Assembly: GCA_022539475.1 (NCBI GenBank)
Contig: VCMS01000042.1
Span: forward strand, 85,781-149,780
DNA length: 64,000 nt
DNA from: Gracilaria domingensis
Taxonomy: Eukaryota > Rhodophyta > Florideophyceae > Gracilariales > Gracilariaceae
Direction of reading: 5' to 3'
Both the position numbers and the translations under genes were made by a program. Shown in pieces: positions 24,743 through 58,679 of this stretch. Below the pieces are notes generated by a model that saw nothing but the letters and a program-made list of their open reading frames with translations, searched no databases and was not told where the DNA came from. The first letter of the stretch is position 1; every line of letters starts with the position of its first letter.

Positions 24743-25240
24743 CGTCTGTCTCTTGCAGATGCTAGTTTTTGGCGAGGGTCGTCTAGAAAGTGGCAAGGGT
24801 CGTCCAGTAAATTTTTTGAAAAAGTATCGAGATCAATTATTTCAAAATTTGAAGATAATTGCTTGGGTCGTCCAGAATCGCTGTGCAGTAAATACTGGTG
24901 GGTTTTCCACTCGTGCTAGTTCTTTAGTCGAGGGCTACCTGAACGGTATTTCGCGAAGTCTAGGTTCAGTTTCCATTAAGGTGCGCATTACACGATACCT
25001 TCTGCGGAATGATACCCTGCAACGCATGGAATACTGTTGCTAGTACAGATGATGTCCATTATGAAATCATACCGTTTTATTCGTATCTATTCTTCTATCG
25101 ACCGCTTTTGCTTACCACTACTTCGCTAAATCACATGTACCATTTCCCCATGATGGAGCGGGTGTAGTTGCAATCTGCGGCAGATGCCGCAGAGGGAACC
25201 TGCACCAAAGTGCGCTATCGGTAGAACAAATACGCACTCC

Positions 25241-25327
25241 GAGAGGATGAGGCGCGAAGCACCTCATCCTCTCCGTTCCTCATGTAGGGAACCATGCCCA
25301 GATGCATGGTTCCCTACCTGAGGAACC
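25241..25327. repeat. Paired subterminal hairpins, left arm
   Basis: Hairpin one at 25241-25273 pairs GAGAGGATGAGG with CCTCATCCTCTC across a short loop. Hairpin two at 25275-25327 pairs TAGGGAACCATGC with GCATGGTTCCCTA. Both recur at the same distance from the right end at 44252-44337, and in a degraded form near 62320-62400. Confidence 0.75.
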
Positions 25328-25838
25328 TGCACCTGCAACTCGTGAGCTACGTCCGCATCAAAATTTATTTACCTGTATACGCAAGCAGAAAGTATCCATA
25401 AGTTAGTCAATGATCCGTTGGATACATTTGAAATGCGATGGAACGTACAATTGATAAAGCAAAACAGAAACGTTGCGCTAGAAAAGTCGAGGGACCTAGT
25501 AACTCGCAAAAGGAAGAAGAAGCAGGAAAGGGATCGGTTAGATTACCAGCCCAGCATCATCGTAAAGCGCGAAAGGTGCCGAAGCGAGAACTCACAATCA
25601 ACGACACCAAGAATGCCCATGGAGCAAACATACCGCAGTTCCCCCTAACATCCTGCACCTGCAACTCGTGAGCAACGTCCGCATCAAAAGTCATATACCT
25701 GTATACGTAAGCAGAAAATATCCATAAGTTAGTCAATGCTCCGTTGGATACATTTGAAATACGATGGAACGTACCATTGATAAAGCAAAACAGAAACGTC
25801 GCGCTAGAAAATTCGATGGACCTAGTAACTTGCAAAAG
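25325..25838. repeat. Subterminal direct repeat, two units
   Basis: Units at about 25325-25520 and 25651-25838 share CCTGCACCTGCAACTCGTGA and a long block around CATAAGTTAGTCAATG. Similar units occur in inverted orientation in the right arm (about 44060-44250) and twice in the half-copy (about 61735-61865 and 62150-62285). Confidence 0.7.
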
Positions 25839-26412
25839 TAACCCACAGCTTTTTTACTGCCGTTTACATGTCGCAGAGCGCGAACATATGTGGTGAAGAT
25901 TTGTTAGTGTAGAACAAAGAAACGTAGAAGGATATGGAAACACGTACAAAAAGACTGCACGGAATAGATCCGTGAGATACGGATGATGTCCGCTTTATGG
26001 AGGCGTTAATTAGGCGGACATGAAGCGTACCTCATTCTCTTCCCCGCCTTGTACTTCGTAGGGAGTCCGAGGTCGGAGAAAGGTACGACGAAGCGCCGTT
26101 CGTGATCAGTGCCATCCAGATCCTCGCGTTCTACTCGGTCGGAGTAGAACGCGAGGAGGTGGCTGGCATGGGTCACGACGGTAACGGTAGATCGGACGCC
26201 GGAGGCGCGGCAGCGGCGGCGGAGGGAAGAGATTTATTTTTCTGTGCGAGATTGGACAGGTGTACAGCGTACAACGTTGCGAAACCACAGGTTTATAACC
26301 AGTGGTAGATAATACGAGAAGTACACCCTTGTGTTGAGGTCGACGTGTGCCTACGTTCCTTTTTGAACGAAAGCAAGTGATTTAAACTCAAAACATATTC
26401 TCCGTTCTCAGC

Positions 26413-29178
26413 ATGACGTCGATCTTGACTGTCGCTCGACCTCCTTCTCCCTTCTTACAACCTTCCCGTGCAGTCTTTGTCGTCGTTTCTCGTTCATTTC
26501 TTCTTCCCATGGTCTACTACTGTACACATAAGAAGCGTGGGTGCCCCTTCGTTACTGGCCGAGGAGTATTATCTCTTCAACAGCATGTCAACCATTGCCC
26601 GTTTCGTCTGAAAGCAGCGCTGGAAGACGAGAATAGCCGGCCCATTCGGAGAAGCAAGCGTCTCAAGCTTTCCGCGCCCGCGGCCCCATCTTCCGAAACG
26701 GTCACTGCCCCTTGTCGCCTTCCCGAGCCTCCGGTATCCGAGTACATCGTTGACCTCACTCCGTGCGCCCCTCCTATTACGGACACTTCGCATTGTGTTT
26801 CTCCTTCCCCGGGTCCCGCGTCATTGGAGCGAGAACACGGAAGCAGTTCCCGCCCAGTGCCTTCTGAGAAGGCCCTCGGTGATTTGCATATGAATTATCT
26901 CACGGTTTGTCTGGCTTCAATAGCTTCCAACCTTGGTCATCGTGAGGCAGACGAGCGAATTGGGCTACTTCGGGACCCGCGATTCTCGCAAAAGCGATTC
27001 AACGAGACCATTACAAGTTCCAAGCACTGTACAGAACTGAAGAACGCCATTTTCGAACGATACGCCTCAAAGGACGGTTTCAATCGCAGAACTGTCTCGC
27101 CAGAAGGATGTAAGTTCAGCGCCACCCTCTACACGAGAGACCGCGTTCAGACACTTGAGAAACAGCTCTAGTTGGATAACAACGAAAACACATTCTTCCA
27201 CCCTATACCTCAGACCCACTTCACGAAAATATCTCACCCCATGTCCGGCTCTCTCGCAAGAGACGCCACCTCAAAACTTAAGGAAATGGTCATGGGCTCT
27301 TTGGATAGTAGAATAGTGTGGTACTTCCAAGAAATAAGTTACAGTGAATCTTTCGTAGGTCTTCTGCAGGTATACACCGATAAGTCTTCAACAACTCTAA
27401 AGCAAACATCGGTTACCGCCTATCCTCTTCATCTTATATTTGTCAACTTCTCCGACGAGCTACGCCGTAAGTGCATCCGTGATGACCTCACAGTAGTGGC
27501 ATACTGCCCTACCACACTGATCGAGGTTTCCGCATCTGAAGCAGACGCAATGCCATTTGTTTCTAGCAAGTCTCTACGCGAGTCCAGGATGCAAATCCTT
27601 CAAGAATCTCTTCGTCAAGTCCTGGAGCCCATTCTAAATCTCACGCAGAAAGGTTTTCAGTTCATCGGGGAAGACAAACTAAGTCGAGTGTGCCATCCTC
27701 TGCTTGCAAGTTATTGTGCGGATATTCCTGAGGCTGAGAACATTCTGTCCATTCTTCATGGGACCATAACGGAAAGCCCGTGTCATAGATGCAAAGCCCC
27801 TCGCTCATCTTTATGCAGTCCTATTCCCACCTCATTCAACGGACGTTCTCAAAAGCACACGAAAAGCATCCGAAAGACATACACAGCTATCTTGCAACAT
27901 GCACAAAAAGACGAGGCGGAAAGACGTCCACGTCGTGCGAGGGAGAGGAGATCTCAAGCGGATACTCTGATGCGTTCAAATTCCATATCTCTCATTCCTT
28001 CGTTCCTCGAAACTTTCATAAGCCTTGGAATGATCCCGGGATTGTCTCCATACAGTCTGTTCTCATTCGAACCATTACACAACTTGCATCTCGGCATCTC
28101 AAAGTTGATAAAAACGGCCACAATCGAGAGACTGCAGTCAGACACCCTATGCACCACAATAGGAACATCTGCATCGCGTTCATTTCAAACGATACGCACC
28201 CAACTCCTCAACCATGCAAACGCAATTCTAGCTGCCATAGAACGCGATTCTCCTGCCAAAGGTTTACATATCGATTTCTCCACGCAGGAGAAAGGCAAAT
28301 CTTTGAATGGTATCTTCACGAAAGACGGTCTCAGTGGAATGCTGGAGGCCAAAAACTACAAGGCACTTGACATGGTCTTTCCTTTCATAGGAGCATTCTT
28401 TGACATATGATGTGGAGAACAGGACGTTGCCCCAATCACAACCGTTTTCTCTCAGTACTCGGACTTGCTTTCGACCTTATTCAGATACAATCGTGACCCG
28501 TATTGGACTGAAAGCTCTCTCCTGTGTCTTAGTTCGGAGATTGAAGCCTTCAAGCGTTCTGCAACAAAGACTCTGGCGGATTTTCATCCCTCCAGACTGG
28601 GAACTCTGAAGTTTCATCTTCTCGATCATCTCGTGGACGATATTCGCCGTCTGGGAAGTATCAAGTACTACGACGCAGGCATATACGAACATACACACCT
28701 GCTATTTAAAAGACACTACAAAACGACGTCCAGAAGAATAGCAACGGCTGTGGAGGAGACTATTCGCTCCATTGAGCACGGACATGTTAGAAAGCAATGG
28801 AATGGCAATACTCCTTACCAGCGTACTCCAGGTTTACCAGGAACTTCCACACAGCTTCCTCGATTTGCAATGAGAGGGCGTTCTTTCACTTTACGAGCTC
28901 TTCAACATTGTGTTTCAAGTATGTCCAGTTCAAAAACAGGGACTGCTGTTAGAGAGATGTTCTCAAGTACGGACACAAGGTCGATTTTTGACCAAATTGG
29001 TGAACAGACCCTTCCTCCCTTCCTAAGTCTCGTGAAAGAAACACTGGATGAGCACTCTATTACATACTTTCCAGAAAAGACAAGGATAACTCTGGTGAAT
29101 TCGGCCCTCGTGAAAGGCGGTTTCGTTCCGACTCTTGAACACTTCGATTCGTCTTCTAAGGCACTTAAGCTGGGACCA
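26413..29178 (+). pseudogene. Plavaka-like transposase, left copy (two stops, C-terminus deleted)
   Basis: A single frame starts at ATG 26413 with an N-terminal Cys/His cluster (YYCTHKKRGC, HVNHC). A Pro/Ser-rich linker and a DDE-type core follow. The YTDKSSTT motif near 27373 fits the first Asp of Plavaka-family transposases (CACTA/EnSpm-related). It is followed by AYPLHLIF, then CADIPEAE near 27715, a CHRCKAP pair, and FEPLHNLHLG near 28066. Compared with the right copy, codon 253 is TAG (C to T) and a TGC codon at 28408 is TGA. Similarity to the right copy ends at about 29178, so roughly 180 C-terminal residues are missing at the junction with cargo gene A. Confidence 0.8.
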
Positions 29179-32100
29179 CAGTATTCATTGTTTCCTTCAT
29201 AACCAGACCACTGAAGTCGGTGTGCAGCGTCTGGCGCTTGCACTTTCTCGTCGTCCCCAGAAATCGACCACCAGTTTTCGGAGTGTACATCTTCACAGCT
29301 TCCTTTTCATTGTCCCATAGTCCCAATGCCGCAGCAATTGTACCCATTCGAACATCAAGTAAAGCACGCGACCTTACAACCCACCTGAGGTCCTCATTAT
29401 CCTCCGGCTTCTCCACCGTACCCCAACGTGTCGACATCACTCTCCCCTCAAATGGTCCATCGCTACCGTCCTTCCATCCTTCATCATCGTTGATTATTTG
29501 AACAAACGACTTCCGTTCCTCTCCTTTCCGTATATCCGGCATCGCTCCATACTCATTCTCGAAGAAGTCCACCAACTTCCCCGACACATCTCCGAACTCC
29601 CGAACTTCTTCCAACTCCTCCCATTTAGGGACACCATTATCCGTCGCAAAGCCATCAAGCACGCAATATCCATTCTGCCTTAGCTCAGCTTGCATTCGGG
29701 CGAAGAACATTTGCCCAAATTCGTCATGCTCCTTCGCAGCAACCCACAGCACCTCTTCATCATCCATACCTGTTGGTCGAGTACGAGGATACTGCATACC
29801 AAATGTCTCCGCCCGTAGGCGATGTTCAGCCCTTGCAGCGTGCCAAAAGACAAGATGGTGTACATCTCTGAGATTCGAGACACTTAGCAGCTCCGACCTA
29901 TGTCCCTTCGGCAAGTGAATGACTCTGAGCCAGGGGTCCTTGTGCTCAATTACGTTCTTCCCTTGCCATTCCTGCGGTCTCAGCCTGGCATACCCGCACC
30001 ATGATGGGTTCGGTGGGCCATCATATGGGTCTCCTCGAACAAGTCCGTGCTCCTCAGATTCCGGAAGAGCTGTAGGTAACTCGTCATCAAATGACCCCCC
30101 ACCTGTCTCTTGCTGATCGTCTGACGCAGCATCTTTCTCGACGGTGACAACCCGTGGAACTGTCACAGAAAGAAGCTCATCGTCATCCACAAATGCAGAA
30201 CTGCCTGCGTTCTCTGCATTCGCTCCCTCTCCCAATGCCACGAACTGAACCTTCATCGACCTTCCTCTCAGCACATGTTCATTTAGTTGAGACATCAGGT
30301 CATCCGGTGTCATGCTGTTCAGAGTAGATCTCATCTGTTGTGTGAAAGTCTTTCTCCGTTTCTTCCTCGGCGGAGCCCGCTGTTCTTCTTCAGAGCTATC
30401 CAGAACTTCTATGGCACCTCCATTTCGGCCGTGCTCAATTTCCCTATAACTCACCTGCGCTCGTTCTCGTGCACTTCTTCGCGGCTCCCCTTCTTCACTG
30501 GCAGATGTTGAAGCAGCAGCAGCGGGAGTCCTCCTCTTCGTCACGGACTGCTTCACTGGTGCGGGGGGCGGAATTACCTTGAGCGCAGTCCGCAATCGAT
30601 TCTGAACGGAAGTCGTGGCAGTTCTAATTGAGTTCGTCCTGCTCCGAACACGCGGCAATGTGTTGAAGTTCACAACTTGTCCCAAAAGGAACTGATACAC
30701 AGCTGCGTTGTTGTCTGGGTCTTCAACGTCATCTTCATTCGATGGAGCAGAAAGACTGACTTCGCGTTTCAGGAACACTTCCATGGACTCTTCCTCGTTC
30801 AGTTCATTCCTCACTGCTCTAGCCGCGCGGAACAGAGACACTGCTCTATCATAAAAGAAACCTCGAACCTCCTCAAAGCTTTTCCATTGCTTTGTCTTCG
30901 TCGACTTGCCCTTCAATAGAAACATCTGAAGACAATCAAGAATGGAAGAAAACTCCTCGGCATCCAAAACATATAGCGGAGTATGGGACAGATGTGTGAG
31001 ACCTATGTCACTCACAGTCTCACATATATCCTCGAAATGGGCCAGCATTCCCTCACGAGACACGAGTTGCAGGGCGACATTGGCATATCTGAGATACTGA
31101 CGCTCTTGCACAGTCCCAATCAGTTGGCTCTCCTTCAACACTTCTGTCACTTCTGCAGGATCCACGTCTACCGGCGTCACCCCCTCAACATTCTTCAATT
31201 AGAATGGCGACCACACTAACTATAGAGTGTATCTTGTCTGCAAACATCATCTTTCGCATGGTACTCGTCGACTCATTGAGGTACGAAGCAACACATAACA
31301 ATTCCTTCATCCCAATGGGCCTCCCATCTCTTCGTATCAGCAGATTGCAACGCCAAAACTTGGCTAATCGCTTCCACTTCGGTGCACCAGTCGCTGCCAA
31401 ATATTGTATAGCTTTCAGACGATGCAAACCATCTACAATGAAGCACTTCTTCGCTAGGCGTCCCTTGTCAGTATCCCTCTCTCCCGTAGTAGCATCTTGT
31501 AAGGCCACCACTGGAGAACCCATCGACTGCAATATCCCCCGCTCCTCCATACTCTTCACAAGGGCTTCAACGTGGCGTTTACTTACTCCACGGAGTAAAT
31601 TCGGCGGAGTGTCCACCAGAGTGATGTCAACAGTAACAACAACCATCCAGTACTGATTGAGGTTCACCTTTGGTATTTTCTGACGAACTCGTCTGTACGT
31701 CTTGCTCCGAGTAAGTGTCCCTTGTGTTCCAGACCGCTCGCCAGAAACACTTGAACGTGCCATTCTTGCGGACAGAAGCACAACGTCATCGTCCTGCTGC
31801 TCCGCAGTTTCTGGTGCAGTTTAGGGTACGGATGGACCAGCTCCTTGCGCGGATTGCGCATCCGCGTCTGGAAGGAGACCTTTCATGAACTCATCTTCCT
31901 CCTCTTGCACAGCCGTCCCCTGCTGAACCGTCGGTTTCGACGCAGAAGATCCCCTTGTGTCGACGGTCTGATTCATCGCAGGAGAAGCCCTTTTCGACGC
32001 AGTGGGCTTCGTAGCGGAGGTAGACTTTGTTTGATCTGTCCGCTTCGTAGCTGGGGATGCTCTCGTCTCCATAGACCGCTTCGTAACAGACGACGGACCT

Positions 32101-32579
32101 GCCCGCGGAGGTGCTACTGATGCGCTACCTCTCGGTGTTGATGAACTTCGAATTGGCTCCGTGCGGCTTGTCGGCGTCATCACCTCACTCATAGCGCTCA
32201 CCGTTCCTCGCTTCGACGCCGGAATGCTGGCTGCCACCGGTTCCATCATTTTCTCATCCCAAGGAGCGGCTGTCCGGAGATCCTGGATATATTGTGGAAG
32301 ATCCAGGCCCTCCGCCCGGTAAGGGTAGAACGTCTGACCGCTTCGACTGATGAGAATATTATGAACCACCACAAGACCTGGGTCCAATTGCTTCCCGTGC
32401 AACTCGCGGCGTAGAACACTTCCAATTCCATGCAAAAACGCTTCCCCGACTATCACCTTTCCTTCATCCTCAATATCCATCTGCAGAGAAACCCGCATTC
32501 CACCTTGCAATAATCGAGTGCTCCGCCGAGTGCGAGGAGTCACGCTTTGCGTACGCTTTCGAACACGAGTTGGCTTCAT
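29165..32579 (-). pseudogene. Cargo gene A: ParB/Srx-like domain plus 2OG-Fe(II) oxygenase-like region, truncated
   Basis: The frame from ATG 32579 runs through one in-frame TAA (31821-31823) into a ParB/sulfiredoxin-like domain at about 31650-31250. That domain has RGVSKRHVEALVKSMEERG and the hallmark VDGLHRLKAI near 31430. A frame change at about 31190-31200 leads into a further 670 codons. The middle is disordered with a Lys/Arg-rich patch. The C-terminal part (GYCVLDGF, then RQTLHTDF near 29225) resembles the first half of a 2-oxoglutarate/Fe(II) oxygenase with its H-x-D iron ligands. The distal His and Arg are absent because the gene meets the transposase at 29178 and its stop codon is transposase sequence. 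The ParB call is good; the oxygenase call is moderate. Confidence 0.6.
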
Positions 32580-34045
32580 GTTGAACAGCTATTGCAGTGA
32601 AAGGTGTATATCAACAATACGCTCGCTCTGGACGATACAACAACGGAGGCGAGCCTTTAAATGGCGACTTACGCTGGGCACCCCCGCTTTCGGCAGCTCC
32701 TCCCAGCGCACTGCCAGTCTCGTCCGTGTCCTGTCCGTGGCCGCTCGCACACTGATTGTACGCTTTAGAGTCGTGGAGTTCGCGCAATGATGACTCACGC
32801 GAGCAATGGTCGCGGTCTGTAATCATGCTCTTCAAATGCTTTGCATAGTAGTCAAGAGTACACTCATTCACTTCCATGTACAGCCTACTCTCGCAAATAC
32901 ACGTGGACAGCGGCGCCAACGTACCGGCGGCCGGGTGTAGCGAAATCACTGCGCGGCGGCGTGTTTTGGGAGGTCCCGGGAAGGCACCGGAAAGTGGCCA
33001 GAACGTGCCGGCGGGCGGGGGGGTCGGTCGTGTTAGGGTAGGTACCCTAACACGACCGGACCCCCCCGCCCGCGGGCATAAAATCGCACATTTTTCAAAA
33101 AATCGCCCAAAACGTGCCCGCGGGCGGGGGGGGGGTCGGTCGTGTTAGGGTAGGTACCCTAGGGTAGGTACCCTAACACGACCGACCCCCCCCCCGCCCG
33201 CGGGGACGTTCTGGCCACATTCTGGCACCCTCCGGAGACCTCCCAAAACACTCCTCCCGGCACTTCCTGTACCCACTGCGTCACCTTAGTGCACCATCCC
33301 GTCATCTTCACCCTCCAGACACTCCCTAATTTCCGGGATGGTGCACTGAGGTGACCATCCCGTCTTCTCCACCCTCCAGACACTCCCTAATTTCCGGGAT
33401 GGTGCACTGAGGTGACGCAGTGGGTACAAGAAGTGCCGGGAGGAGTGTTTTGGGAGGTCTCCGGAGGGTGTCAAAAAATCGTCCAAAACGTGCCCGCGGG
33501 GGGGGGGGGGGTCGGTCGTGTTAGGGTAGGTACCCTAACACGACTGGACCCCGCCGCCCGCGGGCACATTTTGGACGATTTTTTGAAAAATGTGCGATTT
33601 TATGCCCGCGGGCGGGGGGGTCCGGTCGTGTTAGGGTAGTTACCCTAACACGACCGGACCCCCCCGCCCGCGGGCACGTTCTGGTCACATTCCGGCGCCT
33701 TCCGGAGACCTCCCAAAACACTCCTCCCGGCACTTCCGGCAGTGATTTCGCTGCACACGCCGTGCACATATATCAAACTAGAGAAAACTAGCGCTTCACA
33801 CCCACTTGATCCGCGACTTTTAGCACAAGACGCGACCTTTGCAATAGCTCCGAATCGCGAGGTGGCCGACACGCGACGCTATCGCTCCGGGCGGACACGG
33901 ACACGGACGAGACTGGCAGTGCGCTGGGAGGAGCTGCCGAAAGCGGGGGTGCCCAGCGTAAGTCGCCATTTAAAGGCTCGCCTCCGTTGTTTGCGCTGAA
34001 GCGAGGGATTCCGCCCATGTTGGAGAGGAGATACATCCTATCGAC
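32580..34045. promoter_or_regulatory. Divergent, duplicated promoter region of the cargo genes
   Basis: About 90 bases at 32641-32731 are repeated as reverse complement at about 33899-33990. Each copy lies near 60 bases upstream of a start codon (32579 minus, 34046 plus) and contains a TATA-like TTTAAATGG/CCATTTAAA. The two cargo genes would thus share the same core promoter sequence, giving matched divergent expression. Between the copies sits the GC-rich fold-back block. Function is inferred from position and near-perfect conservation. Confidence 0.65.
32936..33757. repeat. GC-rich fold-back block with four nested palindromes
   Basis: The block is bounded by GTGTAGCGAAATCACTGC and, inverted, GCAGTGATTTCGCTGCAC. 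Inside are four copies of a palindrome with 16-base arms around GTGTTAGGGTA/TACCCTAACAC, at 33025-33058, 33137-33184 (duplicated centre), 33513-33546 and 33621-33658. Each is flanked by inverted CCCGCGGGC and G-runs. A central pair of 60-base repeats (33290-33420) contains CCGGGATGGTGCACTGAGG. The whole can fold on itself. A related block lies at 57130-57620. Confidence 0.85.
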
Positions 34046-37000
34046 ATGAGTGCTCCGCCTCCGGCGTTCCATGCATATGTCAGACTTTTCTTGGTTCTTC
34101 GCGATGCTTTGGCAAACAGCGATGGAGACCCTGATCGGCCACGGGACGTGGGGTTTAGAGGGTTAATAGAGTTCTGCGCCGAGAACTATAAGGATATTCC
34201 GGAGGCAAGGAAGATGTTTGAGGAGGCCACTAACTCCAAGAACCTGCAGAACTCGACACTGCAACAGCTGCGAAAGAGTGTTGTGAATAACAAACCTGTG
34301 GAACAGCGATATCTTGTAACGAAGCTTCTTGACAAGAAGGACGGGGATGAGGACCAGAGACTGCGCGATTTTTTCCTTCTCTCTATGGATATGGGTATAT
34401 ACCTACCGGTGCGATGCCTGGTTGGTTATTTCATGACCAGGAAAAGGAAGGTTCTGAAGACGACAGTGTTTATCCCACAAACAGCTGTGAACCCATTTGA
34501 AGTCGCTATATAGTTATCATACGTCGGCTACATAATGGGAGAGAACGAAAACATGAGAAGGATGAAGAAGAAACAAGCGAAAAAGAAACGAAAAGTGAAC
34601 CATGCACCATCTGTTTACATACCCACTTTTACGTCTTTCTCTAAAGAAAACTGTGATCGACTGGGATTTGCTATCAGTGAGGTCGTATGGGCATGGAGTT
34701 CTTCTGTCGCTCATCTTGGATACATGAACGTCTAGCACATGGTGAAACCATACATTTACATGAGTATGCAGACGTTGAAGTATACAGCGCTAGAGACACG
34801 GGAGTCTCGTTATGCCCCGCCGAGCCAGAGTACTCGATTCAACACAAAGGATGTGCCACAGAGCAGTACTAGTGGATCGGTGGAGACCTTGAGTGATGAA
34901 TGCGATACAAACCTGCGAATACTGGCTAAGGAGTTTTTGACAGACCTCGAAACCATATGCACCCACGATAGCCTCTATAGCTTACGGGTTGATCAGATGA
35001 GGAACTGGATAGAGTTTTCGGAGATACGGATGGATACCGTATCTAGCTCTGACTCCGGTGAGTTGCCTGCTCGATTTCAGAAGTTTTTGGAGTTGCTATG
35101 GAAACCGATACAGGATATGCGTCATGCGGCAGGGTTCCATGTCGGCATTCACGCCTAACCTGATATTGAACTGACGAAAACCCCTAAAACTTCCGGTAAT
35201 GCCGAACCTTCTTCGACCAAGTCTGCCCCACCCCCACCTCGTCGAGAGTATATGAACCTCGTGAGCTCCGATAGCGACGAGTTCGAGAAGCCGGTGAATC
35301 TTGCGGAGCATGAATCTCGGGTTGCTGGTTACAACATCCAAAAGACTGGTATTGAGCCGCCCATGAAGGGGATATCCAGTCTCCTTCGAATGAATATGGA
35401 CAAGGTGTGGAAGGGGATGAGAAAGTCACACTTTGTAGCGTACAACTGTGACATGAAGGACCTGAGGCACACACACGAAACGTTTGTGAATCAGAGTGAG
35501 ATTTTATGGGGTGAGGCACAGCTTGTCCTAACAGACCCTCCCTTTAACACTCGAAGGAAGAGGAACAAACGGAATAGTGGTCACGATGTCTTCAGTGAGG
35601 AAGACATGATCCGTACGGCTGACATAATAAGTTCCGCGCTTCGGTCAGGTGGGCACTTCATTATATTCTGTGCGATGGCACAGTTTCATGTGTGGCACAG
35701 GATACTTTCGGAAACGGCGAGTACGAAAGATGAAGCTGGAAGCGAAGGTAAACCAGAACTCATGCCTTCCTTTAAAGTGGATGCGAATCCACTGGTGTTC
35801 ATCCGGGATCGCAGTAATGTTGGAGGAAATCCACGGAAGTTTGGGATACAGCCCGTAACGGAGTACGCCGTTCATGGGGTGAAGCGTGGATTGCGACCAT
35901 CGGAGGAAGCCAGTCTTACTCCATTTGAGGAGAACAATTTCATTCCTTCCACTTTCCCGGCTAACAGGAATGTAATTGACCGGGTGCCCAAACCGAGGGC
36001 GGGGGAGTGGTTGACATGCAAGGTACATGAGCCAGGTAGCTCAGTACCAGGTGGGCAGTACATAAGGCCGGAGCAGAAGTCGAGGGAGTTGATGAAGGAG
36101 TTGATATGTCGGTTCACAAGACCGGGTGATCTTGTCATGGACATGTTCGCGGGAACTTTTTCTAGGGGTATGGCGTGCCTATCGCTGACAAAGCATAGGA
36201 AGTTCTTGGGGTGCGAGAAGCATAGGCCATGTTTCAGCCATGCGAAGCACCATCTAACGACTCTTATGGCCGAAGTTATTCGCGGGGGGAAGAATGACAT
36301 CCTGGTTGAACAGGAGGTGGTGGATGCGGCTTCAACGACCTATGAACGGGTTCCACATCGGGACCGAGGTCGGCTTGAATGGGAGGCTCCATTTGGTTAC
36401 CCCCAGTACCAAGTGATGCCTGGACATATTACGCAGTTCCTAGGAAGATACTGGAAGGACTGGGACTTTGTCGAGAAGTGTGGACAGCGTACTGTAGATC
36501 TTTGGGAGGGGAAGTACCGAGGAGCTCTGAATCTTATGGATATGCATATGCTGTTGACTGTTGAAGCCAATCGCTATCGCCTACATATATCATCTTCTAA
36601 GATTCGACATCCCCGTGCTGGTATGGGGGTGTTCACGGAACATAAGATATTGGCTGGGGAAACTATCTGTCATTTCTATGGAACTTTGGTGTACACGGAT
36701 CTGACGAACCGGAAGGAAAGACACTTAACGTATGGAAGTGGCTGTCTCGGAGCAACTCCAGTGCGGTACAAGTTGTTTTCTATGATGGTCACTGTGACTG
36801 GTACGGAGTTTCTGCACCTGAGGAACAGACCAGGACAGGCTCAGGATAGAAAGGAGAGCGAAGTCTACATTGTCCCGGGAGAGAGTCAGTGGGCGTCCTT
36901 CTACAGGACTCTCTCGCCCATCTCGCAGCGGAGCGTCTTCCGGGATTGCGTCAAGAATTCGTGGATCAGCGAACGATGTCGTGCCGTCAACTGCCGATAA
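34046..37000 (+). pseudogene. Cargo gene B: N6_N4-type DNA methyltransferase fused to a SET-like domain, three stops
   Basis: One frame of 985 codons from ATG 34046 is broken only by TAG 34511, TAG 34733 and TAA 35156. The N-terminal 155 residues are helical and of unknown family; a Lys-rich patch follows. A DNA methyltransferase starts near 35430: TDPPFNT (motif IV) at 35531 precedes MDMFAGTFSRG (motif I, SAM site) at about 36137. This permuted order is that of bacterial beta-class N6-adenine/N4-cytosine enzymes. From about 36600 a SET-like start is seen (RAGMGVF, then AGETICHFYG), but the usual NHxCxPN-type C-terminal motif is not readable before the frame ends. The plus-strand sequence continues in another frame at 36870. 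Confidence 0.75.
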
Positions 37001-37853
37001 TGCAAATCGTGCATCTGTCTCTGCTCCTCAAGAAGATGAGGTAACTCGGCCCAGCGGGTCAGGACAGGAGGGCATGACAACTGGAACCGAAGAGGTTCGT
37101 ATGACACCAAAACCTTCATGTCCCCGGCCGATATCGAAGACCGGAGCTACTGGGGCGCGGGTTACGCCGCCCAGTGGATCTGGACAACAAGGGACAATGA
37201 CGACAAGTCGTGAGAGCCCTAGTATATTAAGATCGTCACGTCCATCCCTGTCTTCTAGAACTGGGGCCGCTATGATTCGTATCATGCCTCGCAATGGGTC
37301 CGGACAAGGGAGAAAGACAATAAGAAATCGAGAGACAACTGATAGACGAGTTATTCCTCGACCTTCCCCTCTTTCCAGAACGGGGGCCGTTGCAGCTCGT
37401 ACGAGGCCCAATTCATCTGATATACCATGCCATGAAGGAGGACAGACACGGGAGTTGGAGCTCGGAGCCGTGCCAAGGGTGGACACAGAACGCCTGCAGC
37501 CTCTCGTGTCTAAGGCTATGGCACATGAGGATAGTTCCGATAACGAAATAACACCGAATCCTGCGGCATTACCGGGCCTGTCGCCGAAGAAGCTAGGGAA
37601 ATAACGGAAGATATCCAAACTGGTGTGAATTCAAGCTCTATGAACAGACCTGATCTTTTAAATGAACTGAATTGCTTGAAAGAAAAGGTTAAGACGCTAC
37701 AAGAGGACTTGATGGTTCGGAGAATTCTAGTGAAGGTCGCCCAAGAGCAGAGTACGGCTTTGAAAAAGAGGCTTGAAGAGAAGGATCTAGTCATTGAAGG
37801 GCTAAGAGGGGCACTGAAACAGGAGGGAGATAGGAGTACACGTAATGGTGAAC
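36870..37853 (+). pseudogene. Cargo gene B continuation: SGSGQ repeats and coiled coil, up to the gap
   Basis: The frame 36870-37604 overlaps the end of gene B and holds three to four imperfect repeats of about 40 residues around SGSGQ and SRTGA, with no known domain. Near 37570-37600 coding-like sequence moves to the next frame (AEEAREITEDI) and continues as a charged coiled coil (NELNCLKEKVKTLQEDL) into the assembly gap. These pieces most simply form the C-terminal part of gene B after small indels, although a separate gene cannot be excluded. Confidence 0.45.
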
Positions 37854-38464
37854 NNNNNNNNNNNNNNNNNNNNNNNNNNNNNNNNNNNNNNNNNNNNNNN
37901 NNNNNNNNNNNNNNNNNNNNNNNNNNNNNNNNNNNNNNNNNNNNNNNNNNNNNNNNNNNNNNNNNNNNNNNNNNNNNNNNNNNNNNNNNNNNNNNNNNNN
38001 NNNNNNNNNNNNNNNNNNNNNNNNNNNNNNNNNNNNNNNNNNNNNNNNNNNNNNNNNNNNNNNNNNNNNNNNNNNNNNNNNNNNNNNNNNNNNNNNNNNN
38101 NNNNNNNNNNNNNNNNNNNNNNNNNNNNNNNNNNNNNNNNNNNNNNNNNNNNNNNNNNNNNNNNNNNNNNNNNNNNNNNNNNNNNNNNNNNNNNNNNNNN
38201 NNNNNNNNNNNNNNNNNNNNNNNNNNNNNNNNNNNNNNNNNNNNNNNNNNNNNNNNNNNNNNNNNNNNNNNNNNNNNNNNNNNNNNNNNNNNNNNNNNNN
38301 NNNNNNNNNNNNNNNNNNNNNNNNNNNNNNNNNNNNNNNNNNNNNNNNNNNNNNNNNNNNNNNNNNNNNNNNNNNNNNNNNNNNNNNNNNNNNNNNNNNN
38401 NNNNNNNNNNNNNNNNNNNNNNNNNNNNNNNNNNNNNNNNNNNNNNNNNNNNNNNNNNNNNNNN
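37854..38464. other. Assembly gap, 611 N
   Basis: All bases are N. Any reading frame drawn across it is an artefact. The true length is unknown if the gap size is an estimate. Confidence 1.
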
Positions 38465-39512
38465 AAACCCCTGGAGCTCTTGGGCAGTTTTGGCATGTTC
38501 ACACCGTCGGTAGAGGGGGGGCCAGATGCTTTGCTGAAGAAAATGGTTGAAGCGAGTTGAAGGAGTTGAGCTGGGAAGGTATTAGAAAAGCATCTCTTAC
38601 CGACAGGTGTATACTGGAACTTTGTGCAGATATGTGCCTTAGGCAGAGAATGCGGCAGACCATGAGTGACGTCGTGGGCGTTCGTAAGAGAAATACGAGG
38701 GATAAACTATTTCTGCTCCTGGGGTACGATCTGATTTGGAGAAGAACAAAGCTGGTAGAAGAGAATGCTGACGAACTCACAATGCAGTTGAAGGAAGCGC
38801 AGGAGAACATACTGCGTCTTGACGAAAATGGTGTACCGAACACTTCATGGTGGAGAAAAGCCCCATTTGTTCGTCTAAAGTACTCCAATGCGGACAATGT
38901 CGAGGATATGCCGACGGAAGATCAAGACTTGTTCTTCCGAAACCGTGTCGGGGTACAAGTGCTGAAGGAGTTTATTGGGTATGATGTGGAAGACAAGGAT
39001 ACGGGCACCTTTTTAGATGGCACAATACTGTTGCTCGCACGTTTGGACGCTTGGGTGTTGACGGTTGTGAGCCTTCTAAGTACGGATGTGTCAAGGGGTG
39101 GCCAGAGACAGAAACTGTTTACAAAGAAGTTTGCTGAACTGCTACCTCTGTGTTTAAAGAATGTTCTGGGGATGTTAGGCAACATGTCTTGAGGACCAAT
39201 TCCAGCGAGTTTCATAATTTTGGAACGACAACGGAAGATTGGACTAAGGTTCTTGGTAATGACATGAGAGAGGCTACATTTGGATATCGAATGCCGTCGA
39301 ACGGAAGAATTTACCTCACTGTGAAAGAACAATTTTTTATTGACAGTGTGAGCCGAAGATTGGGGTCTATTAGCGATTGCTTCGTTGGTGAATGCGAGGA
39401 AGGGGATATGGAGTTCAAGGAAATGGACATGAACGATTTCGGAATTAACACAGGATCACAAGAAAAGGCACCACAAGGTGAACATGTAGAAGATGGAGCC
39501 CTTAATGTTTAA
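38465..39512 (+). pseudogene. Cargo gene B distal part, unknown helical protein
   Basis: After the gap, coding-like sequence is in frame 2 to 38560, frame 1 at 38557-39192 and frame 3 at 39150-39512, so at least two indels are present. The protein is mainly helical and charged (for example ENADELTMQLKEAQENIL near 38763) with a hydrophobic helix pair near 39010-39090. No family was recognised. It ends at 39512, overlapping by four bases the convergent transposase end at 39509, which places the gene inside the element. Confidence 0.45.
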
Positions 39513-42500
39513 GGCTGTACAAGATCAACGTGCTCAGTTGGTCCTTCATCTGAATCATGATAGAATCGATTGATGTAGAATCGGTGTTGGAACCATTGAA
39601 GTGGAGGACAAAAAGGTGGAGCAGGGTAGTTTGATCGAACAACATGGACAGTTCCCTGTAGTGCAGAAGCCGGAACCATCCCGTACCAAGGAGTTAACTC
39701 TACGATAGTCTCCGCTTTGGAATGACGAGGGAACGGAAGAGTGTGGTTCTTTTCATCGTTTGTAGCCCACCGTAAAGATATGCATTTCAATATGTGGTCG
39801 ATGTTTGTTGCGGGGGTAAAACCTCGAAATACCGGACAAATGCCACCTCTGGTGCGGTAAGTGCAGAATCAAGGAGAGATATTCGAATCAGAGCGACTAC
39901 CTGGGCAACCCAAGTCTCTGAATCTTCTCCGCTTACCAATACAGTGGAAAACTTTGGCTTTCTACTGGGACCAAATGCTGGAGAAGCGAAGACACGTTGG
40001 ATGATGGGGTATTTGGGTCGTCCCAGCTTAAGTGCCTTAGAAGACGAATCGAAGTGTTCAAGAGTCGGAACGAAACCGCCTTTCACGACGGCCGAATTCA
40101 CCAGAGTTATCCTTGTCTTTTCTGGGAAGTATGTAATAGAGTGCTCATCCAGTGTTTCTTTCACGAGACTGAGGAAAGGAGGAAGAACCTGTTGACCAAT
40201 TTGATCAAGAATCGACCTTGTGTCCGTACTTGAGAACATTTCTCTAACAGCAGTCCATGTTTTTGAACTGGACATACTTGAAACACAATGTTGAAGAGCT
40301 CGTAAAGTGAAAGAACGCCCTCTCATTGCAAACCGAGGAAGCTGTGTGGAAGTTCCTGGTAAACCTGGATTACGCTGGTAAGGAGTATTGCCATTCCATT
40401 GCTTTCTAACATGTCCGTGCTCAATGGAGCGAATAGTCTCCTCCACAGCCGTTGCTGTTCTTCTAGACGTCTTTTTGTAGTGTCTTTTAAATAGCAGGTG
40501 TGCATGTTCGTATATGCCTGCGTCGTAGTACTTGATACTTCCCAGACGGCGAATATCGTCCACGAGATGATCGAGAAGATGAAACTTCAGAGTTCCCAGT
40601 CTGGAGGGATGAAAATCCGCCAGAGAGTTTGTTGCGAAACGCTTGAAGGCTTCAATCTCCGAACTAAGACACAGGAGAGAGCTTTCAGTCCAATACGGGT
40701 CACGATTGTATCTGAATAAGGTCGAGAGCAAGTCCGAATACTGAGAGAAAACGGTTGTGATTGGGGCAACGTCCTGTTCTCCACAGCATATGTCAAAGAA
40801 TGCTCCTATGAAGGGAAAGACCATGTCAAGTGCTTTGTAGTTTTTGGCCTCCAGCATTCCACGGAGACCGTCTTTCGTGAAGATACCATTCAAAGATTTG
40901 CCTTTCTCCTGCGTGGAGAAATCGATATGTAAACCTTTGGCAGGAGAATCGCGTTCTATGGCAGCTAGAATTGCGTTTGCATGGTTGAGGAGTTGGGTGC
41001 GTATCGTTCGAAATGAACGCGATGCAGATGTTCCTAATGTGGTGCACAGGGTGTCTGACTGCAGTCTCTCGATTGTGGCCGTTTTTATCAACTTTGAGAT
41101 GCCGAGATGCAAGTTGTGTAATGGTTCGAATGAGAACAGACTGTATGGAGACAATCCCGGGATCATTCCAAGGCTTACGGAAGTTTCGAGGAACGAAGGA
41201 ATGAGAGATATGGAATTTGAACGCATCAGAGTATCCGCTTGAGATCTCCTCTCCCTCGCACGACGTGGACGTCTTTCCGCCTCGTCTTTTTGTGCATGTT
41301 GCAAGATAGCTGTGTATGTCTTTCGGATGCTTTTCGTGTGCTTTTGAGAACGTCCGTTGAATGAGGTGGGAATAGGACTGCATAAAGATGAGCGAGGGGC
41401 TTTGCATCTATGACACGGGCTTTCCGTTTTGGTGCCATGAAGAATAGACAGAATGTCCTTAGCCTCAGGAATATCCGCACAATAACTTGCAAGCAGAGGA
41501 TGGCACACTCGACTTAGTTTGTCTTCGCCGATGAACTGAAAACCTTTCTGCGTGAGATTTAGAATGGGCTCCAGGACTTGACGAAGAGATTCTTGAAGGA
41601 TTTGCATCCTGGACTCGCGTAGAGACTTGCTAGAAACAAATGGCATTGCGTCTGCTTCAGATGCGGAAACCTCGATCAGTGTGGTAGGGAAGTATGCCAC
41701 TACTGTGAGGTCATCACGGATACACTTACGGCGAAGCTCGTCGGAGAAGTTGAGAAATATGAGGTGAAGAGGATAGGCGGTAACCGATGTTTGCTTTAGA
41801 GTTGTTGAAGACTTATCGGTGTATACCTGCAGAAGACCTACGAAAGATTCACTGTAACTTATTTCTTGGGAGTACCACACTATTCTACTATCCAAAGAGC
41901 CCATGACCATTTCCTTAAGTTTTGAGGTGGCGTCTCTTGCGAGAGAGCCGGACATGGGGTGAGATATTTTCGTGAAGTGGGTCTGAGGTATAGGGTGGAA
42001 GAATGTGTTTTCGTTGTTAGCCAACTGGAGCTGTTTCACAAGTGTCTGAACGGGGTCTCTCGTGTAGAGGGTGGCGCTGAACTTACATCCTTCTGGCGAG
42101 ACAGTTCTGCGATTGAAACCGTCCTTTGAGGCGTATCGTTCGAAAATGGCCTTCTTCAGTTCTGTACAGCGCTTGGAACTTGTTATGGTCTCGTTGAATC
42201 GCTTTTGCGAGAATCGCGGGTCCCAAAGTAGCCCAATTAGCTCGTCCGCCTCACGATGACCAAGGTTGGAAGCTACTGAAGCCAGACAAACCGTGAGATA
42301 ATCCATATGCAAATCACCGAGGGCCTCCTCAGAAGGCACTGGGCGGGAACTGCTTCCGTGTTCTCGCTCTAATGACGCGGGAGCCGGGGAAGGAGAAACA
42401 CAATGCGAAGTGTCCGGAATGGGAGGGGCGCACGGAGTGGGGTCGACGATGTCCTCGGACACTGGAGGCTCGGGAAGGCGACAAGGGGCAGTGACCGTTT

Positions 42501-42782
42501 CGGAAGATGCGGGCGCGGGTGCGGAAAGCTTGAGACGCTTGCTTCTCCGAATGGGCCGGCTATTGTCGTCTTCCAGCGCTGCTTTCAGACGAAACGGGCA
42601 ATGGTTGACATGCTTTGAAGGGATAAGACTCCTCGGCGAGTAACGAAGGGGCACCCACGCTTCTTATGTGTACAGTAGTAGACCATGGGAAGAAGAACTG
42701 AACGAGAAACGACGACAAAGACTGCAAGGGAAGGGCGCCCGAAGGGAGAAGGAGGTCGAGCGACAGTCAAGATCGACGTCAT
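39509..42782 (-). pseudogene. Plavaka-like transposase, right copy (most complete)
   Basis: This is the best copy: 955 codons (42654-39787) without a stop. Relative to the other copies there is a one-base deletion near 42614 that separates the N-terminal zinc cluster (42782-42620). A frame change at about 39812-39820 moves the C-terminus into the frame ending at 39509 (readable blocks NIDHILKCISLRWATND, WYGMVPASALQGTVHV, HRFYINRFYHD). Core motifs are YTDKSSTT near 41826-41803, CADIPEAK, CHRCKAP and FEPLHNLHLG. Expected product is the DDE-type transposase that cuts the element at its termini. Confidence 0.82.
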
Positions 42783-43520
42783 GCTGAGAACGGAGAATAT
42801 ATTTTGAGTTCAAATCACGTGCTTTCGTTCAAAAAGGAACGTAGGTACACGTCGACCTCAACACAAGGGTGTACTTCTCGTATTATCTACCACTGGTTAT
42901 AAACCTGTGGTTTCGCAACGTTGTACGCTGTACACCTGTCCAATCTCGCACGGAAAAATAAATCTCTTCCCTCCGCCGCCGCCGCCGCGCCTCCGACGTC
43001 CGACCTTCCCTTACCGTCGTGATCCGTGCCATCCACATCCTCGCGTTATACTCCCCTCCGTCCTTCTTTTTTCCTCCCTGTACTTTATGGAGGTTCCTTA
43101 AAGTAGAGGGCGGAAAAAAGTAGGACGGAGTCATCCGTATCTCACGGATGTATTCCGTGCAGTCTTTTCGTAGGTTCTCTTCCATATTCTTCTATGTATC
43201 TTTGCTCTAAACTAACCCATCCTCACCACGTTTTTTCGCGCTATTCGACATGTAAACGGCAGAAAATAAGCTTTGGGTTACCGGGTTCCCGTTTTCAGCC
43301 TCCAACTCGTTCCATTTGTTCAACTACGTTCTGCTTACGATATGTTCCATCTTGTTCTACGTCTTGCTACTAACATTGACGTGATTGAAGGTAACCACTA
43401 TTTGACGTGCGTCCTTTGTATTTCTTCCGACGTCCACAACGACTGTAAGTACGCAACCAGTTTCATTTCGTCTCTCAAGATCGATCTCTGACTGCTCGTG
43501 TAACCTATCACGCGGTATTG

Positions 43521-43960
43521 CCGATCTTGGTTCACTTTGTTGCGCCATAGGCGTCTCTAGCTTCTCGCATCTTGCGCTACTTTTGGTTTGTTGGCGATCT
43601 TGGTTCCGCCATAGACTCTTCTCTCTTCTCGCGTCTTGCGCTGCTTTTGGTGTATTGGCGATATTGGTTGATATTGGTTGACTGGCTCGGGCGATAGGTT
43701 CATCATTGGCAATCTTGGTTGACTAGGTTGCGCCATAGGATGGTCTCTCTCTTATCGCGTCTTGCGTTACTTTTGGTGCATTGGCGATATGGTTTGACTT
43801 GGTTGCCTCATAGACTCGCCTCTCTTCTCGCGCCTTACGTTGATCTTCTTGTATTGGCGATCTTGGTTGACTGGCTTGCGGGATAGTCGATTCTGGTACT
43901 TGGTTGCGACATAGGCTGCTCTCTCGTTTATCGCATTTTGCGGTATGTTTGCTGCATGGG
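43521..43960. repeat. Imperfect tandem array, about 80-110 bp unit
   Basis: Four to five degenerate units share TTGGCGATCTTGGTT, CGCCATAG and TCTCGCGTCTTGCG in that order. The array lies only in the right arm; the half-copy near 61500-61620 keeps a shortened form and the left arm lacks it. Confidence 0.6.
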
Positions 43961-44251
43961 TATTCTTGGTGTCGTTGCTTGTGAGTTCTCGCTTCGACAC
44001 CTTTCGCGGTTTACGATGATATGGTGGGCTTGTAATCTAACCGATCCCTTTCCTGCTTCTTCTTCCGTTTGCGAGTTACCAGGTCCCTCGACTTTTCTAG
44101 CGCAACGTTTCTGTTTTGTTTTATCAATGGTACGTTCCATCGCATTTCAAATGTATCTAACGGATCATTGACTAACTTATGGATACTTTCTGCTTGCGTA
44201 TACAGGTAAATGACTTTTGATGCGTACGTAGCTCACGAGTTGCAGGTGCAG

Positions 44252-44337
44252 GTTCCTCAAGTAGGGAACCATGCATCTGGGCATGGTTCCCTACATGAGG
44301 AACGGAGAGGATGAGGCGCTTCGCGCCTCATCCTCTC
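44252..44337. repeat. Paired subterminal hairpins, right arm
   Basis: The stems AGTAGGGAACCATGC/GCATGGTTCCCTAC and GAGGATGAGGCGC/GCGCCTCATCCTC are perfect here and lie about 500 bases from the end, mirroring 25241-25327. Confidence 0.75.
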
Positions 44338-44836
44338 GGAGTGCGTATGTGTTCTACCGATCCAGCAATTTGGTGCAGGTGCCCTCTGCGGCATCTGCCG
44401 CAGATTGGGCCTACATCCGATCCATCATGGGGAAATGGTACATGTAATATAGCGAAGTAGTGGTTAGCAAAAGCGGTCGATAGAAGAATAGATACGAATA
44501 AAACGGTATGATTTCATAATGGGCATCATCTGTACTAGCACTAGTATTCCATGCGTTGCAGGGTATCATTCCGCAGAAGGTATCGTGTAATGTGCACCTT
44601 AATGGAAACTGAACCTAGACTTCGCGAAATACAGTTCAGGTAGCCCTCGACTAAAGAACTAGCACGAGTGGAAAACCCACCAGTATTTACTGCAAAGCGA
44701 TTCTGGACGACCCAAGCAATTATCTGCAGATTTTGAAATAATTGATCTCGATATTTTTTCAAAAAATTTACTGGACGACCCTTGCCAATTTCTGGACGAC
44801 CCTCGCCAAAAACTAGCATCTGCAAGAGACAGACGT

Positions 44837-48433: not shown

Positions 48434-48872
48434 CGATAATCTTAAGCAAGGCTTCAGAGAAGAGGAGTTTAGGCATCCCGGGGCTCTCATCAACATGGAG
48501 TGTCCTGAGGCGCGAACAAGAACTGCAGTGCTCTCTCTCGGCGGAACTTGTCGAACAAACGGCTGTCGGCAGAGGAGAGGAAAAGTATTTTGATCGCTTC
48601 AAGTATCAAAAGAAGATTCATCTTCGTCTGTGTTCTGCAAAGTGGAATATAGTCTGTTCGCTTTGGAAACTAAGCTAGTTTTGGAGCTATTTGGGGCGCG
48701 CGAGGGGGTGGCAGAGGCTGGCACTCAAAAAATTAAGAAATTTTGGAATATTAAATTCCATTTCGCGCAGTTTAGTTCTTGGGTCTCCTAGTTTTTGTAG
48801 AGGTTCTACTTCGCCGCACCACCCCATTCACTCTTTTCCGCGACCCTCTCTCAAAACTGCACTCGTGCTAGT

Positions 48873-49584
48873 TTGCGTTTCCATTTTCCTCTGAGTTGCA
48901 ACAAAAATCACAACTCATCCCACCTCAATCATCCCAACGTTCCTTCCCATCCAAACCGCAATCACTCTTTACTCATTTTTCGCCGATCCTGCGTTCGGAT
49001 CCTTCCTCTTCGTCTCCCCAAAAGCTTTTCTGTAGAAGTACGGGTAGCAACCCTCCCCAATCCCGTACACCCGCGTCGCCCAAAAACAGCTTCCCATTCC
49101 TCCCCATCCTTTTCTCCTTATGCGCCGCCTGATTTCGTTGGGCCGTTCGCAGTTTCATGCCCTACGTAAAAACCCAGTCAAGACCGGAGCCCCGATTGCC
49201 GCCTTTGGCACCTCTTCCATCACCATCCTCTTCTCCTTACGCCTCTTCGTCAGACGGCTCTTCCGGTGCCCAAAACTACCAGCCTTCGCCTTCGTTGTCA
49301 AAAAGGACTCCTTCTGTGCCGCAACCCTTCCCGCACTTCCCATCTCTGTCCTTCCTTCTACATCCAATTTCAGCATCCTTTCCTCCACCAACCCTTGTCT
49401 TGTGCAGAACACTTTCACCGCCTTCTCCAGCACGTCTATCACGTTTCTAAGGACAATAAGCTTCTCTTGCGCAACTCATCTAGGCCTCCTGGCGCACATT
49501 ATAGTACACCATACACGTTTTATCTCATCTCCATCTCTTAAACGAACAAAAAGCTGCGCAGGATTAATATCTTCTCAACCGTAG
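48873..49584 (+). pseudogene. Possible decayed gene in a pyrimidine-rich tract
   Basis: The plus strand is very rich in C and T, so several frames are open at once and most are low-complexity Ser/Pro. The best coding-like piece is a helical stretch near 49370-49480 (EHFHRLLQHVYHVSKDNK) reached through a frame change from a Ser/Pro-rich lead. Composition alone could explain the open frames. Confidence 0.2.
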
Positions 49585-51641
49585 GCTCACTATCAGCCCC
49601 ACTCAGCAGCACACCGCCCATTTCAATCATAATATTCACAATCAAATAGTAAAAGTACAATCCATAACATTGCCACCCTTGCTTTTATCTTTATCACCAA
49701 ATACATCTTTGTGCCTTTTTCTCCGCAAACTGTTTTCAATCTTTAACGTCCTTTAAAGCATGGATATTTTGCCATTTTTTATAACCACCTCCACCTTCCA
49801 TTTTACCTACGTCTACGCTTAACCATCATTTGTCCTTTTCTTCGCGCATATACAGTCTTTATCTGCCAAGTACTTGTTGTTTGACATCCGAACGGCCTTT
49901 TCAATGGCGTCAAAGGTACCTCTCTCCCATCCAATGACGTATGACGATCATTGTCTTTACCGTATTCGTTAGACGTCATTAAAACCCGGGCTCTTACAAG
50001 ATCAAAGAAATCAATGCGGTACCGTGCAAGAAAGGAGTGTTAAGCTATTCGGCCTTCTGAGCTCGTGGCACACTTTCTTTTGTTCACCTAAATTCGTCCC
50101 ATTCCTCTTATCGAAGTTCTCATCGGACGATCTTCTGTACAAACCCCCATCTTTCACTATTTAACGCCAACTAATTATCTTCCTACAATATCATTAAATA
50201 GTTTTTTTAACCACCTTGCCTTGACCCGGATTAATCTCCCATCGAAGGTTGAGAAAACGTTAAAGCCGCTCTCAATGATTCACAGTTCTCTTTCAAGTTG
50301 TGGAGGGCAGCGCCGCTTCTTTTCAATGGTCGTTGTTTCTCAGCATGCCATGCAATAAGTTGTTAATCGTTGTTGTGGAACATGCGTCAGTGACAAGATC
50401 GTTAGAGGCATGGGTTGCGGATGTTGATTGGTGGTCGAGCGTGGACAATGAGTGCTAATGACGAAATGGAGAGGATTGCAAAGCAGAAATGTTTCGCTGT
50501 GCTCCTAGGCATCTGTGAACTATTTCAGGCGATACATTATATACTCTGTTCTACAGCTAAATGAAAACTCCTTTCGTGCCGCTATGAACGGTTTTTGATA
50601 GAGTTAGTTGTTTTTGTGTTGTTAGTAGACGTTTACTCGCAGAGATTCGAATGCAAGTGAGAAGGACGATGCAAAGAGCAACAGATGGTTTTCGTTTTGT
50701 GTAGCAAAGACATAGTCTACATGTGGTGCACTGCGGGACGTCAGTAGTACGACGGGGACGAGCTACTCTGTGCTTGCTCTCCTGAAAAGCACGGCGAGCA
50801 CAATGGCTCGGATGTTGTATGGCATTTAAAAGTGGAGAGTCATAGTTTAACTACTGGTTTGAACGGTTGAAATCAAACTCAAGTACGCTTATAAGGTTGA
50901 AGATCTCGAGCACTGGCGTCTTTTCAAAATCACGGAGAAGAACTCGCATGAGCGTGGAGTCACCATTGCGCACGGCCAACGTTGGTGCTTTTCACTTGTC
51001 AAATGAGCGCGAGAGCGAAATGTACTTGCACGCACCGACGCGCACGTGTATACATTTTGTACTGAGAAGGGGCCGAAAGATAGGCGGTACAGCAACGCAA
51101 CGTGCGCGCCACCAGCACAGCGCCGCTGTGGGCTCGGCAACAATCGATCAAACAACCCCCATTCCCTGGTAGAAAATGCCAAAAGTTTCGATGTTCAGAA
51201 GGTTGTGATGTTTAACCAAAGTGGTGCATAGGTGCTCCATAGGTGTTTATTTAATTCCGAGGAACATAAATTATGATTTTAGGTGGTGGTTAGGTTGTCG
51301 GCGTATGCCAGGTGTCCATTGCTGCAACAGCTTGTACGAGATTAACAGCTCGTATCGCCAGAACTGGCCACCCGGCATGCTCATGTCACCTAAGCGTTAC
51401 AAGCAGCTCCAGGGCAGTGATGATCGGTACCTGAAGTTCTTTGCCGGACGTGACTCTGTCAGTTGGTGCGAGAAGTTAGCCGTACGATCGCCAGTGGCTC
51501 CGGCTCGAAATTCGGGGCTCACTAGAGTTCTTTGCTGAGCTCGAGCTCTACTCCGAGCTTTCTAACATTCTTTACCCTGGTCTGTCAACATCAACCGAGC
51601 TTGGGTGCATGACCAGCAGGGATTGTTACTACGAGTGTTAG
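49585..51641. other. About 2 kb without a supported gene
   Basis: No long frame, LTR or transposase motif was seen. A frame at 51221-51538 lacks an ATG for its first 28 codons and shows no domain; it may include the 5' end of the next gene, whose start is unresolved. Confidence 0.4.
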
Positions 51642-57093: not shown

Positions 57094-57129
57094 GTCATAA
57101 TGTCATTCTGTCGTACTGGCAGCGGGCGA

Positions 57130-58190: not shown

Positions 58191-58192
58191 CA

Positions 58193-58350: not shown

Positions 58351-58679
58351 GTTCTGACAAGCTAACTATTACATGATCCTCACAGGTCTAGAGAACGGGG
58401 GCTGTAACAGCTCCTATATGCTACATTCATTCAGTATAAAACTCTATGGAAGGAAAACGCGACAAGAGTCGTAGCTGAAAGCAAAACAGATGGTAGTCAT
58501 GAAAACCCCTCAGCCCGGCGTGCTTGGGCTTGTAGCACATGACAATTGTTCCAATATTGAAATCGCATCGCTTCCCCTCCCATTAACAAGGCCTGTCACC
58601 AACATTACAAGAGAAGACATAAATCGACGTGTTGTGGAGATACTGTAAAATGCTGCCAATGGTTTTAGTTCTTCTTCTG

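Follow-up and report, generated by a model that had tools for sequence, protein, structure and literature searches.

A Plavaka-class DNA transposon family of Gracilaria domingensis with a methyltransferase-SET gene and a ParB-like gene as candidate epigenetic cargo

The inverted 20-kb block at positions 24743-44835 of the window (the whole 64,000-nucleotide stretch of Gracilaria domingensis DNA analysed here) is best explained as one copy, rearranged, of a large DNA transposon of the Plavaka class, a family whose identity is well supported and which has several hundred ends in the 77.9-Mb genome. The family element is asymmetric, with one end (E) beside the Plavaka transposase and an unlike end (L) opposite, and there are good grounds for its mobility by action of the transposase on these two ends. 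The original prediction that a Plavaka-class transposase and epigenetic-type cargo belong to one mobile element was borne out at many loci, where cargo genes lie at fixed spacing to defined tips. The reading we favour, and consider reasonably probable, is a Plavaka transposon with L and E ends, HAD genes and two divergent genes around a palindromic centre, a methyltransferase-SET gene (M) and a ParB-like/oxygenase-like gene (P), in which the cargo would control the chromatin state of the element itself.

The transposase gene (39512..42809, minus strand) is spread over three frames in the window, compared with a 1100-aa open frame in other copies. It was assigned to Plavaka by Pfam PF18759 (right-arm sequence E=1.3e-19, 71 bits against a cut-off of 26.3; 68.1 bits for the 1100-aa copy), and carries the motifs CHRC at residue 417 and HLLDH at residue 695. 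Stop-free matches made up 46 of the 48 scored, and the copies are nearly identical (0.1% difference among seven compared), with a pN/pS of 1.02 on 76 differences summed over pairs. The left arm holds the same protein with two internal stops, covering residues 1-937 of 1100, so the expected transposase on both arms exists as Plavaka sequence on each, truncated on the left at about 29179-29193 and broken on the right. The proposed KDZ grouping was wrong, Plavaka being placed near EnSpm in the classification given by Kojima (2025, PMC12730594), where some fungal Plavaka are described as carrying TET/JBP genes.

The E tip (CGTCTGTCTCTTGCA...; 24743..24757, plus strand) occurs genome-wide as 487 exact 21-mers (259 forward, 228 reverse; control 0). 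Its 13-mer occurs 522 times, against 487 for the full tip, so there is no second class of the same tip, and no second end bearing this 13-mer was found. The L end was found via a neighbouring element: copies of window 44840-56000 start at 48622-48627 in 14 of 32 rows, with the sequence CGTCTGTGTTCTGCA at that start, and the L tip (CGTCTGTGTTCTGCAAAGTGG...; 48625..48664, plus strand) is present as 473 exact 26-mers in the genome (228 and 245 by strand; control 0). L and E tips have CGTCTGT in common and then five of the next eight positions (12 of 15), an imperfect match that provides the terminal inverted repeat expected of Plavaka; the tips begin with CGTCT and not with the termini TGT..ACA (PlavakaA) or CATCA..TGATG (PlavakaB). 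Plavaka elements have target duplications of 2 or 3 bp, and TT/TT was found at element B (described below), the one element for which both flanking sequences are available. CG precedes TCTGT at all nine distinct E flanks and at the three L tips read; CG as the target duplication, suggested by an insertion on contig C65, was dropped, an uninterrupted site (L008) being without CG. The transposase would act on the imperfect terminal repeat CGTCTGT(C/G)T..TGCA at both ends, moving the element by cut-and-paste with a 2-bp duplication.

Orientation of the tips agrees with this pairing. The first 100 tips listed for each kind (of 487 E and 473 L) formed 92 adjacent pairs within 40 kb, and 48 of these were in the order L(+)...E(-) or E(+)...L(-); 2000 shuffles of the strand labels gave on average 17.9 properly oriented pairs and at most 30. 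The other 44 of the 92 were not in L...E orientation. By size, 8 of the 48 fell at 13.7-14.4 kb, 6 at 22.2-22.9 kb and 13 at 10.1-10.8 kb, the last forming a further size class. The E tips at three loci on three contigs (L003, L004 and L006) have an identical outer flank, as do those at L002 and L005; such sharing may reflect duplicated regions, contigs of different haplotypes or insertions that landed in a repeat.

The order of parts over about 22.6 kb is L, HAD genes, P (minus strand), palindromic centre, M (plus), ORF3 (plus), Plavaka transposase (minus) and E, on a map assembled from several copies (copies read: C329, C28 and C65) and exclusive of 2.3 kb inside the L end. Linkage of cargo to tips was counted on contigs C2-C65, for 15 M loci, 21 P rows (20 for tip-pair content), 5 rows of the HAD segment and 6 loci of an ATP-grasp gene from element B, from gene searches that score best candidates only and with an ATP-grasp list that omits short or distant fragments in C18, C26, C35, C42 (261761 and 163868), C45 and C46. 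The distance from M to a facing E tip was 9.25-9.99 kb at 10 of 15 loci, and that from P to a facing L tip was 6.6-7.3 kb in 9 of 21 rows. The HAD segment was found 2.32-2.35 kb from L in 4 of its 5 rows, and for the ATP-grasp gene the distance to E was 5.8-5.9 kb at 3 of 6 loci; the means of 30 shifted controls were 0 to 0.03. An exact tip at the expected distance was missing for 12 of the 21 P rows and 5 of the 15 M loci on the same contigs. Contig C34 (184906-207545) has L, P, M and E in that sequence within 22.6 kb; on C29, L, P and E span 22.7 kb. Of the six pairs of 22.2-22.9 kb, these two are the ones with P or M among the gene matches listed. Finding the cargo at many loci without the termini of the block had been named beforehand as evidence against one element; this was found in part, the cargo copies having E on one side and L on the other.

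The ORF3 region (36881..39511, plus strand) comprises frames of 497 and 349 aa at L059 and is interrupted in the window by an assembly gap of 611 N (37854-38464) within the block. Two HAD-type hydrolase genes (PF08282) in opposite directions occupy the L half of the element at L061:1779-3810. At L059:734-743 (C65:17236) an E tip abuts the palindromic centre of another copy, and the 9.1-kb L...E pair on C65 (L tip C65:8072) that ends inside another copy's centre looks like a nested insertion.

The two central genes were correctly predicted to be divergent, each convergent with the transposase of its own side. M (33974..36880, plus strand) encodes an N6/N4 DNA methyltransferase-SET fusion (N6_N4_Mtase E=4.4e-13 in the window), here with a stop just before 35159 and a SET part truncated by a loss of about 640 nt at 36878. 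An intact copy of 1055 aa (L022) has both domains in one frame (N6_N4_Mtase 3.5e-15, SET 1.9e-7), the nearest solved relatives in PDB are the beta-class adenine methylases DpnA/CcrM (E=7.5e-8 and 2.8e-6), and the catalytic DPPF is retained in all 20 M loci compared (L009-L028). M and P copies are more divergent among themselves than the transposase copies are. The pN/pS ratios of 0.36 for M (12 stop-free of 19 copies) and 0.42 for P (19 of 20 copies), which may be too low for copies picked by protein similarity and free of stops, suggest constraint on both cargo genes.

P (29168..32588, minus strand) has lost its C-terminus at 29179 and shows one stop and one frame change in the window; elsewhere its open frames reach about 1300 aa. 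For the ParB/Srx domain, P gave a weak match to phrog_3264 (E=0.0018 over 44 residues) and no Pfam match, and P as a whole had no matches in Pfam, NCBIfam or PDB. An HxD...H pattern, which we take to be of the kind seen in 2-oxoglutarate oxygenases, is intact in 9 of the 11 copies read through it. Membership of the TET/JBP group was not shown for the oxygenase-like part, although a distant similarity may exist: P0007 and the C-terminal part fall in no Pfam family at E<=10, and a C-terminal profile run against PDB returned eight matches at E 0.29 or worse, none of them an oxygenase. Fold predictions for the C-terminal part and the ParB region (pLDDT 30 and 35) were unusable. On motif and profile evidence, P may be oxygenase-like and ParB-like.

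Between the two genes lies the palindromic centre (32639..33991), a divergent promoter region in which inverted repeats are nested and 24-nt palindromes recur. The 24-nt palindrome has three matches in the block centre and four at 57139-57536, and none in 100 shuffles; a palindromic centre is also present at L057, L059, L061 and L062. From its domains and position, M would methylate the amino groups of adenine or cytosine in the element's DNA and, through SET, would couple this DNA marking to histone methylation. The ParB-like part would bring P to the palindrome array in the shared promoter, where P may modify or remove marks. With M and P together, the element would set its own chromatin state and escape host silencing or time its expression. 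Such epigenetic self-control is inferred from the gene content and arrangement. No candidate C5-methyltransferase (PF00145) was detected in the assembly, which may be incomplete, in a search whose control genomes were prokaryotic; an anti-5mC role, as proposed for TET/JBP elements, is therefore not the obvious one here.

The cargo could instead consist of passengers, or act on rival elements or the host (for example in self-DNA marking), and have no role in the chromatin of the element. In favour of this is element B, a second family member in the window (48625..62861) that runs from an exact L tip to an E tip degraded by several small indels. Between the same kinds of ends it carries unrelated cargo, namely a 1231-aa frame with a VWA match (51642..55334, plus strand; PF00092 E=1.6e-5) and an ATP-grasp protein (55777..57102, minus strand; at least 10 full-length copies at 98-100% identity), together with a centre holding four palindrome copies (57122..57647), the remains of a decayed M (tblastn E=3e-6) and a transposase remnant in pieces (58692..60936, minus strand; residues 1-744 of 1100 by tblastn) that lacks the last third. 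Element B was likely moved by the transposase of other copies. As it is multi-copy with unrelated cargo, mobility needs no M and P in cis, and the HAD genes of the larger element, likewise, are not epigenetic. Against a passenger role, M and P have in common a promoter region with a palindrome array, and their pN/pS ratios lie below the expectation for no constraint, subject to the selection bias of the copies. On balance we rate a cargo without a part in element chromatin as possible and rather unlikely, and retain self-control by the element as the preferred reading.

More doubtful still is a two-sided switch, in which the methyltransferase-SET protein would write amino-methyl and histone marks and P, recruited by its ParB-like part to a parS-like array, would oxidise the mark, in a host without detectable C5 methylation; cousins that keep the ends and the array and swap the cargo would then make the element a cargo vehicle.

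That the large repeat is an endogenised DNA virus and not a transposon is very improbable. Its giant size, intron-poor large frames and bacterial/phage-like methylase would suit such an origin, and Amoebidium has viral giant repeats beside its Plavaka giant repeats (in the account of those repeats in PMC11244446). However, capsid, packaging and polymerase families are absent from the scanned frames (2.3 kb inside the L end lies outside the scan), two IMG/VR scans found no relative of M or P, and the transposase and tips suit a transposon. A search of phage records for M gave one short match only.

The window copy itself is without the L half and without intact frames. Long inverted arms are present as predicted (24743-29179 against 40017-44835), their three longest blocks being 94-97% complementary (815 nt at 95%, 440 nt at 94% and 2598 nt at 97%) and shorter blocks 84-94%. 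The reading of 24743-44835 as one element of symmetric, palindromic architecture did not survive. Between the two arms the long blocks show 3-6% difference, and the right arm is nearer to copies on C28 and C65 (99.3-99.8% identity; 97.8-99.6% to L050-L056) than to the left arm. A 601-base query across the junction at 29179 was matched whole at the window alone, 1 of 40 scored hits (629 first-look candidates), and the other 39 have their start precisely at the break and extend over the P side only. Of the 19 P loci compared (L030-L048), 18 extend beyond the position of window 29179 into a common flank, matched only partly at L043 and L046 and over most of its length at L045. HAD-type genes lie in this flank, which is itself repeated, with at least 33 full-length copies among the matches listed. 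Both outer ends of the block are exact E tips, two copies of one end type, the right terminal region (42810..44835, minus strand) having its tip at 44835; they are flanked by GG and TC, with no shared 2-bp duplication. The block is the sole adjacent E(+)/E(-) pair among the 92 tip pairs (first 100 listed tips of each kind).

The 20-kb palindrome looks like a one-off joining of two transposon copies, a private rearrangement. The left part (24743..29179, plus strand) is the inverted E end of another Plavaka element, with a broken, truncated transposase, fused here to the P gene; the L half of the window copy, from inside P outward, has been replaced by this end. A mobile palindromic composite with two identical E ends has the exact E tips at both outer ends and the long, alike arms in its favour, and was rejected as scarcely credible on the junction, flank and tip-pair results. 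Left of the block, window 1462-24179 contains Ty3-type retrotransposon frames (reverse transcriptase/RNase H, integrase and gag).

Plavaka elements with TET/JBP genes, the Plavaka giant repeats of Amoebidium and SET-carrying transposons are already known, while the open-access literature searched showed neither a Plavaka element with a methyltransferase-SET fusion among its cargo nor the L/E ends or the palindrome array. Like the fungal Plavaka elements treated in PMC12730594, the present element combines a transposase bearing C(2)C and H(3)H motifs, a putative short target duplication (TT/TT, at one element) and adjoining cargo of a DNA-modifying type. Unlike the fungal elements covered there, with tips TGT or CATCA, its tips begin with CGTCT and it measures about 22 kb; where some of those carry TET/JBP, its cargo encodes a fusion of an N6/N4 methyltransferase to SET along with a ParB-like protein for which no TET/JBP match was detectable. 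The same source cites HarbingerS and MuDR elements of Phytophthora with SET genes, which likewise place a SET histone methyltransferase on a DNA transposon, although the transposases are of other classes and its passage on them does not mention a DNA methyltransferase fusion.

The Plavaka giant repeats of Amoebidium, in the description given in PMC11244446, resemble the present family: they are gene clusters of very large size and few introns with a Plavaka transposase at the flank, and red-algal and dinoflagellate hits to their genes are noted there. They differ in having many tyrosine recombinases and tandem clusters of up to 50 kb, whereas in the present family both ends are defined and no tyrosine recombinase gene occurs in the scanned frames (2.3 kb inside the L end lies outside the scan). 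For the proposed action of P on the palindrome array, the closest working model is VANDAL/VANC of Arabidopsis (PMC10398659), in which a transposon protein acts on repeated non-coding motifs of its own element; VANDAL is of the MuDR class and VANC is not ParB-like, and binding by P would be a putative counterpart.

In bdelloid rotifers, which are without C5-methyltransferases, the bacterial-type N4CMT is tied to SETDB1 (in the findings of Rodriguez et al. 2022 drawn on here, PMC8885841). M resembles N4CMT as a bacterial-type N6_N4 amino-methyltransferase (domain match 3.5e-15) in a eukaryote without detectable C5-methyltransferases and in a putative coupling of DNA to histone methylation. As described in that source, N4CMT is encoded by the host and has a chromodomain and an SPPY motif, while M is transposon cargo fused to SET, has DPPF and shows neither the chromodomain fusion nor SPPY. 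Unlike the rotifers' N4CMT and SETDB1, both activities would sit in one transposon protein. A transposon with a bacterial-type DNA amino-methyltransferase-SET gene, its ends repeated hundreds of times, would supply eukaryotic genomes directly with enzymes of this kind. The defined L and E ends allow the family to be traced across genomes, and the methyltransferase-SET element offers a testable case of an element that may write its own marks.
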